A stretch of DNA of 41,874 bases, from positions 1 to 41,874 of the forward strand of contig JAPLFN010000107.1 of assembly GCA_026390655.1 (NCBI GenBank). Reading direction: 5' to 3'. The position numbers and the translations under genes were made by a program. The notes below the pieces were generated by a model. The model searched no databases and was not told the origin of the DNA. It saw only the letters and a list, made by a program, of their open reading frames with translations. The DNA is from Candidatus Kapaibacterium sp. (GTDB lineage Bacteria; Bacteroidota; Ignavibacteria; Kapaibacteriales; Kapaibacteriaceae). The first letter of the stretch is position 1, and every line of letters begins with the position of its first letter. Below, in pieces: positions 6,458 through 34,820 of this stretch.

Positions 6458-6931
6458 ATGAAGTCTTTCACATATAGTCGTCTAGCCGTGGTCGCAATAC
6501 TCGTTATCTCATCTGCTTGGATAGGAGGTTGCTCATCTAAGGACGGTGATGCCGACGATAAGACACCGTCGTTTGCCGAAGATCAGCAACCAAAGGCTGT
6601 CTACGGCAAAATTCAAAAGGTGGATGTAGGTGATGCGATCGACCCCTCTATGGCAAAGGCGGGCAAGGAAATATTTGAAACGAAATGCACCGCATGTCAC
6701 AAATATGATGTGAGGTATGTAGGCCCTCCCCTTGGTAAGGTTACCGAACGCCGGACTCCGGTGTACATCATGAACATGATCCTCGACACAGAAACCATGA
6801 TCGAGAAGGATGACACTGTGCAATGCCTAGTACAGACCTTCCTGATGAAGATGCCGAATCAAAGCGTGGATGAGAAGGACGCTCGCAACATTCTCGAACA
6901 CCTGCGCACAAAGCCAACAGAAGCAAAATGA
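6458..6931 (+). CDS. Lipoprotein monoheme cytochrome c of the nos cluster
   Basis: Probable electron donor to NosZ. The start at 6458 has 'gagga' upstream and yields a lipoprotein signal ending in lipobox 'WIGGC' (C25). One heme site, C77-T-A-C-H81, and a likely axial Met in 'FLMKMPNQ' (M130 or M132). The window holds no nosR, nosG, nosH or nosC, so this membrane-tethered cytochrome is the only visible route for electrons. Its stop overlaps an ATG of the longer nosZ reading frame, and the chosen nosZ start is 38 bp further on, so co-transcription is nearly certain. Confidence 0.88.
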   Translation: MKSFTYSRLAVVAILVISSAWIGGCSSKDGDADDKTPSFAEDQQPKAVYGKIQKVDVGDAIDPSMAKAGKEIFETKCTACHKYDVRYVGPPLGKVTERRTPVYIMNMILDTETMIEKDDTVQCLVQTFLMKMPNQSVDEKDARNILEHLRTKPTEAK

Positions 6932-6969: not shown

Positions 6970-8925
6970 ATGGTAACGCCGAGATCCTTCTTGCGCGGTC
7001 TGTTCGTACTTATAGCCGCAATCTCAATTGTCTCCTGCTCAAAGGACAACGCTCCTTCGGGCGGCGCTCTTTCTGGTGACGCAGCGCAACGCGTCTATGT
7101 TGCACCGGGTCAAAAGGACGAATTCTACGACTTCGTCTCTGGTGGATTCAGCGGCCAAGTGGCCGTTTATGGTCTTCCAAGTGGACGACTCTTTCGCGTG
7201 ATTCCCGTCTTCTCCGTTGATCCGGAGAAGGGATGGGGCTTCACAGAAGAAACAAAACCAATGCTTAACACATCACACGGATTCATTCCGTGGGATGATT
7301 CGCACCACCCGGACCTATCGCAAACAGGTGGCGTTGCAAATGGTAAGTGGCTCTTCATCAACGGAAACAATACGCCCCGTATCGCACGTATTGATCTGAC
7401 GGATTTCCGTACGAAGGAAATCATTGAGATTCCGAACAGTGCCGGTAATCATTCTTCGCCGTTCTCTACAGAAAACTCTGAGTACGTTGTTTCGGGTACA
7501 CGTTTCTCGGTACCTATTCCTCAAGAAGACGTCTCTATTACCACATACTCCGAGAAGTTCAAAGGGGCTCTCACCTTCGTCAAGGTGAACCAGACATCAG
7601 GTGCAATGGATATCGATTTCCAACTCCTCGTTCCTGGCTTTGACTATGACCTCGCCCGTGCCGGCAAGGGTCCTTCACACGATTGGATGTTCATGTCGTG
7701 CTACAACACGGAAAAAGCCAATACGATGAAGGAGATCAACGCCTCTCAGAACGACAAGGACTTCATCATCGCTATCAACTGGAAAAAGTGTGCTGAGATC
7801 GCTGCTTCCGGAAAGGGTACGATCATGAATGTGGACTATGCACACAATGTCTACGATGATGCCAAACAGTCAGCAACTTCTACCATCAAGAAGTCTATTC
7901 GCATTCTGACCTCTGAAGACATCAAGGGTGCCTTGTACTATATGCCTACACCAAAGTCACCGCACGGTTGCGATGTTGATCCGTCCGGTGAGCTCATTGT
8001 TGGTGGCGGCAAACTCGCAACTGTCATTCCTGTAATGTCGTTCTCCAAGATGATCAAGGCAATCGAAAGTGGCAAGTCAGACAAGATCATCGATGGAATA
8101 CCTGTATTGAACTACAAGGACTGCTTAGCAGGTGAAGTTGTTCGTCCAGGCCTTGGACCTCTTCATACTGAGTTTGACGGAAAAGGATATGCCTATACAT
8201 CGATGTTCGTTTCTTCAGAGATCGTTAAGTGGTCACTTAAGGATTTCAAAGTTGTCGATCGCGTACCTACCTATTACTCAATTGGTCACCTTGGTATTCC
8301 TGGTGGTAACTCCACAAAACCTTGGGGCAAGTATCTGATCGCCTATAACAAGATCACAAAGGATCGCTACCTGCCTACAGGCCCTGAGCTTGCACAATCC
8401 GCGCAGCTCTTTGACATCTCGGGCGACAAGATCAAGCTCCTGCTTGATTTCCCAACGATCGGTGAACCTCACTATGCTGTTGCATGTCCGGCCGATCTGA
8501 TCATGAAGAATTCACGGAAGATGTATCAGCTATCTGAGAACATGCACCCATATGCTACAAAGAAAGAGTCTGACACAAAGGTAGTTCGCTCCGGAAACGA
8601 GGTTCACGTGTATATGACGTCAATCAGATCACACTTTTCGCCAGACAACATCGAAGGTGTAAAGGTTGGAGACAAGGTCTATTGGCACGTTACAAACCTT
8701 GAGCAAGACTGGGATGTTCCGCACGGCTTCGCCGTCTACGGTGCAGCAAACTCGGAGCTACTCATAATGCCGGGAGAAACCTGCACCATGCTTTGGGAAC
8801 CTAAGCAAGCAGGCGTTTTCCCATTCTATTGCAGTGACTTCTGTTCTGCACTGCACCAGGAGATGCAAGGGTATGTCCGCGTCTCTAACGGCGGTAGCGG
8901 TGCAATGTCGTGGAATAAAAAGTAA
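6970..8925 (+). CDS. nosZ: Nitrous oxide reductase, clade II (Sec-dependent) NosZ
   Basis: Reduces N2O to N2 in the periplasm, the last step of denitrification. The N-terminus is a Sec-type, apparently lipoprotein signal ('LIAAISIVSC') with no twin arginine, which marks clade II (atypical) NosZ. The beta-propeller carries CuZ-type histidine segments ('DSHHPDLS', 'HGCDVDPSGE', 'HTEFDGKGYAYTSMF', 'EPHYAV', 'ENMHPYA'). The C-terminal cupredoxin domain has the CuA set: His in 'HGFAVYG' and 'CSDFCSALHQEMQG' (C-X3-C-X3-H-X2-M). The start at 6970 is preferred because it has 'tagga' upstream and a clean signal peptide; ATG 6928 is an alternative that overlaps the cytochrome stop. Confidence 0.98.
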   Translation: MVTPRSFLRGLFVLIAAISIVSCSKDNAPSGGALSGDAAQRVYVAPGQKDEFYDFVSGGFSGQVAVYGLPSGRLFRVIPVFSVDPEKGWGFTEETKPMLNTSHGFIPWDDSHHPDLSQTGGVANGKWLFINGNNTPRIARIDLTDFRTKEIIEIPNSAGNHSSPFSTENSEYVVSGTRFSVPIPQEDVSITTYSEKFKGALTFVKVNQTSGAMDIDFQLLVPGFDYDLARAGKGPSHDWMFMSCYNTEKANTMKEINASQNDKDFIIAINWKKCAEIAASGKGTIMNVDYAHNVYDDAKQSATSTIKKSIRILTSEDIKGALYYMPTPKSPHGCDVDPSGELIVGGGKLATVIPVMSFSKMIKAIESGKSDKIIDGIPVLNYKDCLAGEVVRPGLGPLHTEFDGKGYAYTSMFVSSEIVKWSLKDFKVVDRVPTYYSIGHLGIPGGNSTKPWGKYLIAYNKITKDRYLPTGPELAQSAQLFDISGDKIKLLLDFPTIGEPHYAVACPADLIMKNSRKMYQLSENMHPYATKKESDTKVVRSGNEVHVYMTSIRSHFSPDNIEGVKVGDKVYWHVTNLEQDWDVPHGFAVYGAANSELLIMPGETCTMLWEPKQAGVFPFYCSDFCSALHQEMQGYVRVSNGGSGAMSWNKK

Positions 8926-24240: not shown

Positions 24241-24627
24241 ATGAAAACTATCATTGCTGTTATCGTCGTAGGCCTGTTGGCCATTAGCGTCGTGGACGCG
24301 GGATCATCAGGCGACGTCTCAACTGCGTCGGCTGAAAAGATGGTTAAGGATACAAAGGGGCTCATCATCCTTGATGTGCGGACGCCGGAAGAGTATGCAG
24401 CCGGACACCTTGCCAATGCGAAGCTGATGAATTACTATGACAAAAACTTTACAGACCAACTGAAAACACTTCCGAAATCAAAATCTGTGCTTATCTACTG
24501 TAAGTCGGGACGTCGCAGCGCAGAGACACTTGCATTAATGAAGAAGCTTGGGTACAAGAAGGCCTACAACATGCTCGGTGGATTTGTGGCATGGTCAAAC
24601 GAGAAACGTCCGTCAACAACGAAATAA
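24241..24627 (+). CDS. Exported rhodanese-like sulfurtransferase
   Basis: 128 residues from ATG 24241. A signal peptide (about 1-20, 'IIAVIVVGLLAISVVDA') precedes a single rhodanese domain with 'LIILDVRTPEEYAAGHLANA' and the active-site loop 'C87KSGRRS', so the persulfide-forming Cys is intact. Predicted to move sulfane sulfur in the periplasm. The next gene, a diheme cytochrome, begins 2 bp after its stop, indicating one transcript. Confidence 0.92.
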   Translation: MKTIIAVIVVGLLAISVVDAGSSGDVSTASAEKMVKDTKGLIILDVRTPEEYAAGHLANAKLMNYYDKNFTDQLKTLPKSKSVLIYCKSGRRSAETLALMKKLGYKKAYNMLGGFVAWSNEKRPSTTK

Positions 24628-24629
24628 TT

Positions 24630-25712
24630 ATGAAGAGAGATACGGAGAAACGTAGGGTCACGCCATGGCGTGACCGTGATACGGAGAAACGTAGGGTCAC
24701 GCCATGGCGTGACCGTAATACGGGGATACGGGGTTACGTTGTAGCCCTCGTAGTTTTCAGTTGTGCGATCTTCTGCATTGGATGTGCGAAGCATGAAAAG
24801 GAAGTGATTGTTGAGAAGAAGTCAGATAGTCTCTACACGCCCCCTGATACCAATTCGATTCCAAACGATGCATTAGGTGCAACGATTCGCTATGGGAAAG
24901 AGCTCGTCGTGAATTTCCCTTACTACCTTGGACCAAAGGGCAAGGTAGGTCACTTTGGGCGTAACGGCCTTGGTTGTCAGAGCTGCCACCTCGATGCCGG
25001 AACCAGGCCATACGGTCTGAACTATTTCTCTGCCCATGCCAGATACCCGCAGTATCGCGCGCGCGAAGGTCGCGTACTCACGTTGGCAGACAGAGTAAAC
25101 AACTGTATCGAAAGGCCGTTGAATGGAGTGCCGATGCCTACAGACAGCAAGGAGATGGTTGCCATCGTGACCTACATGAAGTGGATCTCTCGTGGTGTAC
25201 CTGTTGATGCTCACGTGCCGGGTGACAAGCTCAAAGACATTGCACTGCTTGATCGAGCAGCCAACTCTGAAAAAGGGCGCACGATTTATGAGAAACACTG
25301 CATGCGCTGCCACGGAGATGATGGCCAGGGTGTTCTCAAGCCAGATGGCATTGCCTACTTCTATCCGCCTCTTTGGGGCAAGCTTTCCTACCAGCCCGGT
25401 TCATCAATGCACCGCCTGATCAAGTCTGCTCAGTTCATCAAATACAACATGCCCTTTGACCTCGCACGTTGGGATAAACCAGTCCTAACAGACGAAGAAG
25501 CGATGGATGTTGCGGCCTACGTAAATGATGACCAACTCCACACGAGGCCCGGTGTGTATCTCGACAACGAGTATCCGGTGCGCAAAGAAAAACCGGTTGA
25601 CTACTACCATCCGCCTTATGAAGACCCGTTCTCTGCTAAAGAACACAAATACGGTCCGTTCAAGCCAATCTTTGAATGGCGTAAAAAGAACGGTCACCCA
25701 ACAGGCTATTGA
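24630..25712 (+). CDS. TsdA/SoxA-like diheme cytochrome c lipoprotein with repeat-derived N-terminus
   Basis: Likely thiosulfate dehydrogenase/tetrathionate reductase type enzyme. Two heme sites, C116-Q-S-C-H120 and C224-M-R-C-H228; between them 'ARYPQYRAREGRVLTLADRVNNCIERPLNG' follows the TsdA pattern, with C159 a candidate ligand. Lipobox 'FCIGC' (C52). The n-region is abnormal: residues 4-29 are two copies of 'DTEKRRVTPWRDR', encoded by two 39-bp DNA repeats that contain the palindrome GGTCACGCCATGGCGTGACC. No in-frame start exists between the repeats and the hydrophobic core, so the repeat must be translated if the signal is used. Its stop abuts the convergent sulfotransferase-like gene with no gap. 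Confidence 0.85.
   Translation: MKRDTEKRRVTPWRDRDTEKRRVTPWRDRNTGIRGYVVALVVFSCAIFCIGCAKHEKEVIVEKKSDSLYTPPDTNSIPNDALGATIRYGKELVVNFPYYLGPKGKVGHFGRNGLGCQSCHLDAGTRPYGLNYFSAHARYPQYRAREGRVLTLADRVNNCIERPLNGVPMPTDSKEMVAIVTYMKWISRGVPVDAHVPGDKLKDIALLDRAANSEKGRTIYEKHCMRCHGDDGQGVLKPDGIAYFYPPLWGKLSYQPGSSMHRLIKSAQFIKYNMPFDLARWDKPVLTDEEAMDVAAYVNDDQLHTRPGVYLDNEYPVRKEKPVDYYHPPYEDPFSAKEHKYGPFKPIFEWRKKNGHPTGY
24639..24716 (+). repeat. Tandem 39-bp repeat carrying a 20-bp palindrome, inside a coding region
   Basis: Two identical 39-bp units (24639-24677, 24678-24716), each containing GGTCACGCCATGGCGTGACC (24656-24675 and 24695-24714). 39 is a multiple of three, so the frame of the cytochrome is kept and each unit adds 13 residues. 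A degenerate 'atacgggg' pair follows. The 26-bp core GTAGGGTCACGCC...GACCGT recurs at 28179-28204, and a diverged inverted copy is at 39651-39672. Confidence 0.95.
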
Positions 25713-28167: not shown

Positions 28168-28214
28168 GTTACGGAGTTGTAGGGTCACGCCATGGCGTGA
28201 CCGTAGTTACGGAG
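28168..28214. repeat. Intergenic copy of the GGTCACGCCATGGCGTGACC palindrome
   Basis: The palindrome is at 28183-28202 with the same 26-bp core as the copies at 24.65 kb, and is flanked by a direct repeat GTTACGGAG (28168-28176 and 28206-28214). The flanks resemble the TACGGAG flanks of the tandem copies. It sits in the divergent promoter region of the ASST-like and RmlD-like genes. Confidence 0.85.
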
Positions 28215-28217
28215 GTC

Positions 28218-28239
28218 GCGCGATAGCATGCTATCGCGC
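28218..28239. promoter_or_regulatory. Perfect 22-bp palindrome
   Basis: GCGCGATAGCATGCTATCGCGC reads identically on both strands. Directly after the GTTACGGAG repeat and just before the candidate promoter of the RmlD-like gene. Could be a regulator site or another repeat element; no homologous copy seen elsewhere in the window. Confidence 0.55.
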
Positions 28240-34767: not shown

Positions 34768-34820
34768 CTCGTAACTCGTAACTCGTAACTCGTAACTCGT
34801 AACTGGTAACTCGTAACTTC
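34765..34820. repeat. Heptanucleotide tandem repeat (TAACTCG)8
   Basis: Eight consecutive 7-bp units: five TAACTCG, then TAACTGG, TAACTCG and TAACTTC. The array begins with the stop codon of the RNase H gene and ends 3 bp before the dut start codon. Because each unit opens with TAA, reading frames are closed in it on the + strand, whereas the reverse frame is open ('VTSYELR...'). Copy number is likely to vary between strains. Confidence 0.97.

Follow-up and report, generated by a model that had tools for sequence, protein, structure and literature searches.

The start of a lipoprotein cytochrome c gene from a Candidatus Kapaibacterium-type genome contains two tandem palindromic repeats, which are in frame with the coding sequence. 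The gene lies at positions 24630–25712 (plus strand) of the window, by which we mean the whole stretch of 41,874 nucleotides that was analyzed. We consider it very likely that the repeats are a tandem pair of GTAG-tagged REPs, embedded in an array of octamers, that was captured in frame as the n-region of the cytochrome export signal. The kind of event is already known; new here are its lineage and host genes, and the unusually clear turnover of signal-peptide n-regions at the same site in related species.

The insert at the cytochrome gene start

The cytochrome combines a SoxA/TsdA-type domain with one of class I cytochrome c (Pfam matches PF21342, E = 1.7e-15, PF13442 and PF00034). Its full-length identity to orthologues from the genus and family is 61–77%, rising to as much as 80% in the mature portion. 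A rhodanese gene (PF00581; 24226–24627, plus strand) is located directly 5′ of it, and the gene order porin-rhodanese-cytochrome-neighbour is conserved in relatives. The start codon is assigned to ATG 24630, with a further in-frame ATG upstream, at 24591, as an alternative.

The original prediction described two tandem 39-bp units, each with a perfect 20-bp palindrome, encoding residues 4–29, and both exact copies were found between ATG 24630 and the lipobox. The two units, at 24639–24677 (residues 4–16) and 24678–24716 (residues 17–29) on the plus strand, are identical. Each consists of an octamer remnant GATACGGAGAAAC, a GTAG tag (24652–24655 and 24691–24694), the palindrome GGTCACGCCATGGCGTGACC (24656–24675 and 24695–24714), and a final GT; tag and palindrome together span 24652–24675 and 24691–24714. 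Read from ATG 24630, the product of the units is DTEKRRVTPWRDR, present twice. The octamer array, AATACGGG GATACGGG GTTACG, runs on in frame after the units (24717–24738), so that the repeat-derived segment is longer than 78 bp. The hydrophobic core and the lipobox FCIGC follow at 24739–24785, with the lipobox cysteine (24783–24785) in a position that is conserved among orthologues. The number of 39-bp units at this site is taken from MAG data and may be mis-assembled.

The tagged 24-mer GTAGGGTCACGCCATGGCGTGACC has six matches in the window with up to 3 mismatches, compared to 0.00 expected from shuffled windows. These correspond to three palindromes, each matched on both strands. The third is an intergenic tagged copy with octamers at 28179–28202 (plus strand; palindrome at 28183–28202).

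The reading frame is open from ATG 24630 (or ATG 24591) across both units to the lipobox cysteine. As originally claimed, no ATG, GTG or TTG occurs after the repeats among the codons read from 24630 up to the cysteine. Near-cognate codons in this region are ATC and ATT, both within the hydrophobic core, and ATA 24726, the only one ahead of the core, which lies in the octamer remnant. The resulting n-region is very basic, also as predicted, with 13 K/R and 6 D/E residues and a net charge of about +7 by sequence count.

Repeat families and their putative mobilization

The genome carrying the window (G000; 2.63 Mb in 131 contigs) is a 92%-complete MAG. The palindrome of the insert, termed pal1, occurs at about 38 sites on over 20 of its contigs and at none in 10 congeners, allowing up to 2 mismatches; it is thus a species-specific family. 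A variant, pal1′, has the sequence GGTCACGGCATGCCGTGACC. The bases G, T, A and G of the tag precede 28, 30, 30 and 29 of 31 copies, respectively, figures that are somewhat inflated since the copies were oriented by the tag; the opposite flank is variable. Copies are surrounded by octamers of the type TTACGGGG/ATACGGAG, whose cores are located within 30 bp of 27 of the 31 copies, compared to 4.75% of random positions. Units with the same 39-bp spacing are also present on contigs C45, C64 and C121. Most copies lie between ORFs (short or antisense ORFs overlapping them were left out of the coding count), and several contigs terminate in one. A second family, pal2 (GCGCGATAGCATGCTATCGCGC), has 34 sites in G000 and 8 in the related species G010, and occurs within the cytochrome orthologue of that species as well; one copy is in the window at 28218–28239 (plus strand). 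The window also contains an array of the 7-base unit AGTTACG (34770–34801). TACGGAT arrays are numerous in G001 and octamer arrays in G009, indicating that the array type is species-specific.

REPs with an unpaired GTAG at the end of the palindrome form the GTAG-tagged, RAYT-associated superfamily (PMC3733652). The sequence features of pal1 fit this superfamily, as a RAYT-type REP in an array of 8-bp repeats: a perfect 20-bp palindrome, where 20–40 bp is typical of REPs, an unpaired GTAG tag at one end, and many dispersed, mainly extragenic copies. RAYT-like genes are present in G000 and in 7 of 10 congeners, none of them reaching the NCBIfam cut-off of 80 bits. The best match in G000 scores 44–47 bits, although the genes on C61 and C20 pass the Pfam Y1_Tnp threshold. 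In G000 these genes adjoin palindromes other than pal1; that on C61 adjoins the pal2 variant GTAGCGCGAGAGCATGCTCTCGCGCTAC, and no RAYT gene was detected beside pal1 in this MAG, which is 92% complete. In the congener G005, a RAYT-like gene (C46:6918–7337) is flanked by copies of GTAGGGTCACAGCATGCTGTGACC (6661–6846 and 7423–7450), a sister REP of pal1. The mobilization of pal1 was presumably carried out by a RAYT-type transposase.

This G005 locus (C46:6661–7450) and another at G002:C35, where two inverted GTAG-type palindromes lie downstream of a RAYT-like gene, are REPtron-like units in Kapabacteria. Five tandem 37-bp palindromic units adjoin another RAYT-like gene (G003:C262).

Turnover at the orthologous site and probable translation of the repeats

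The N-termini of 11 orthologues were read. Nine of them, from seven congeners and the family members G015 and G016, are short and ordinary and lack the insert, so the residues encoded by the repeats are not a universal feature of the protein. The other two, from the related species G002 and G010, have repeats at the same n-region, each different and all open in frame. The n-region of G002 is composed of octamers only (MKPFVTQLRSYLVTQLRICVVVLCCTLVFIGC) and lacks a palindrome, while that of G010 contains octamers and a pal2 palindrome (MMMTSGTEIQRYRDTEVPARAIACYRASTIVFFSVLLFIGC); in both proteins the lipobox is FIGC. Their cytochrome start codons overlap the rhodanese stop codon as ATGA, 5′ of the repeats, and an overlap of this kind is a usual sign of coupled translation. 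G010 has an alternative start, a GTG between the octamers and the palindrome, from which the palindrome would still be translated.

A tree of four concatenated genes joins G002 and G010 (98/98). A clade of all three insert-bearing species is neither rejected nor proven by the same tree (p-AU 0.38), and a cytochrome-only tree with distant outgroups gave no resolution. The simplest reading is that an octamer array arose once in an ancestor and that REPs arrived separately afterwards. One homologous site presents a series of states: no insert, octamers, octamers with one palindrome, and octamers with another. Such a series makes the translation of mobile palindromes into protein directly testable.

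We infer the following order of events. REPs and octamers would spread chiefly between genes and be kept where they land in a permissive n-region or loop with an open frame. An octamer array would have settled first, between the start codon and the hydrophobic core of the cytochrome, in the common ancestor of the three species. A signal-peptide n-region tolerates nearly any sequence that is in frame, free of stops and net-positive, and the array could then have been turned over in frame, lineage by lineage. The G000 lineage would have gained a pal1 REP and undergone the 39-bp tandem duplication, G010 would have gained a pal2 REP, and G002 would have retained octamers alone. Read from ATG 24630, the repeats would form a cytoplasmic n-region that is removed with the signal peptide, leaving the mature cytochrome unaffected and the cost low. 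This explanation needs no benefit of the insert, for which we found no evidence, although pairing of the palindromes in the mRNA may influence expression.

The repeats almost certainly encode the start of the cytochrome export signal. In all three species, and through different repeats, the frame is open from the ATG beside the rhodanese stop. Segments of matching lengths around repeats elsewhere are open at rates of 0.19, 0.31 and 0.36, so that three open frames in three would arise by chance with a joint probability of about 0.02. The proposal of a dispersed palindromic family captured in frame is supported, with ATG 24630 as the probable start in use.

It is unlikely that the repeats are instead an untranslated leader, with translation beginning at a non-standard codon after them. 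Initiation at ATA 24726 would yield MRGYVVALVVFSCAIFCIGC, which looks like an ordinary lipoprotein signal and is similar to those of orthologues such as MRSNAVIIALATVACIIAAGC, and many G000 repeats do serve as leaders: most sampled repeats near gene starts have an ordinary start codon 3′ of them, and those repeats are thus not translated. However, ATA is a very rare and weak start codon, and both the shared open frame at this site and a membrane-protein ORF that remains intact through such repeats in mid-gene (see below) argue against a leader.

A second alternative, that an mRNA hairpin some 26 nt downstream of the start codon is kept because it tunes how strongly the cytochrome is translated compared to the rhodanese, is distinctly unlikely. 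The paired palindromes do form a strong mRNA fold (z = −6.5 compared to shuffles), but any such palindrome folds, the G002 site has none, and the same repeats occur in unrelated places, including protein loops. An Rfam match of the hairpin to mir-15 (E = 0.023, 27 bits compared to a cut-off of 80) was attributed to chance. It is highly improbable that the longer basic n-region is an adaptation for targeting, with an effect on Sec routing: its net charge and the lengthening of n-regions in three species would suit such a role, but length and sequence differ from species to species, and other congeners manage without it.

Probable captures in other genes, and known systems

Repeats are found in frame in at least three further gene families of G000. 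The cleanest candidate for coding capture is an HTTM/VKGC protein (C80:8279–9661, minus strand), in which the inter-helix loop KVAREHDLKVAREHALAPARHTVAPIRHTVAPILHTVAREHALSLP corresponds to pal2-variant palindromes and short tandem repeats. The equivalent loops in G001, G002, G005, G008, G009 and G010 are shorter, non-repetitive and mutually different. Since these repeats lie in mid-gene, an alternative or later start could not explain them. Three adenylate cyclase paralogues (C61:2069, C85:16986 and C5:53049) contain pal1′ in a variable loop, just ahead of the conserved RGxIEVKGKG end, where the residues of relatives are unrelated. The C5 copy, at a contig end and in an inverted duplication of the cyclase end, is probably an assembly artefact.

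Ahead of the lipobox of a VWA-OmpA lipoprotein (C96:7885–9459, minus strand), and in frame with it, lie a 21-bp array (about 7 copies), a variant of pal2 and pal1′. Translation could also start at a GTG within pal1′, and the array may thus be 5′ UTR. In the G002 orthologue on C130, which shares 79% identity, octamers of the CGTCAT type make up the n-region and reach into the beginning of the hydrophobic core, and a GTG is the sole usable start. Orthologues at a greater distance are ordinary. When tandem repeats were surveyed across about 1.15 Mb, including overlaps, no other gene turned up in which a start codon was missing between an array and the hydrophobic core, which suggests that capture is uncommon.

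Intragenic, in-frame REPs have been described in several species and phyla, many of them at N-termini (Di Nocera 2013, PMC3733652). The Kapabacteria repeats resemble GTAG REPs (PMC3733652) in being tagged palindromes, dispersed in dozens of mostly intergenic copies, single and in tandem, with some in frame in ORFs, and in that a sister REP of pal1 flanks a RAYT-like gene. They differ from the GTAG REPs surveyed in 2013 in their host, in their setting of octamer arrays, and in the occurrence of different repeats at one signal-peptide site in relatives. That survey recorded only CGTC repeats in Chlorobi and Bacteroidetes (PMC3733652). The intragenic REPs of Xanthomonas recB are similar in that differing REPs lie at about the same gene site in related species (PMC3733652); the host there is a DNA-repair protein, whereas here it is a cleavable signal peptide. 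Literature searches returned no paper on REPs in Kapabacteria, in agreement with the initial view that no such case was known in this lineage. The cytochrome is not a lone case, given the two related species and the other gene families. Intragenic GTAG REPs are thereby extended to a little-studied phylum.

The originally noted likeness to Rickettsia palindromic elements (RPEs) holds for the in-frame capture, which in RPEs is seen in numerous unrelated genes, both in terminal regions and within loops; as to identity, the repeats are GTAG-tagged REPs of the RAYT kind in octamer arrays. That the element is an RPE or its descendant can practically be dismissed: palindromes are indeed captured in frame in several genes, but pal1 carries a GTAG tag, whereas RPE-type REPs end in CGTC (PMC3733652), and its sister REP brackets the RAYT-like gene of G005. 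Longer RPE-1 elements also exist, the presumed mobilizer is different, and no sequence kinship with RPEs was seen for the Kapabacteria repeats, which are RPE-like in their working only.

It is conceivable, although we hold this tentatively, that REPs and octamer arrays in Kapabacteria are a recurrent raw material for new protein segments. Lipoprotein n-regions, one hydrophobic-core start and membrane-protein loops would then have been rebuilt time and again from repeats specific to each species, and the export signals of orthologues would diverge through the capture of repeats and not by point mutation.

The many such repeats at gene starts are a warning to gene callers. At one such trap (G000:C64:1–160), three palindromes lie just 5′ of the lepA start with the upstream frame open; this frame was not counted as coding, since the usual LepA start is downstream.
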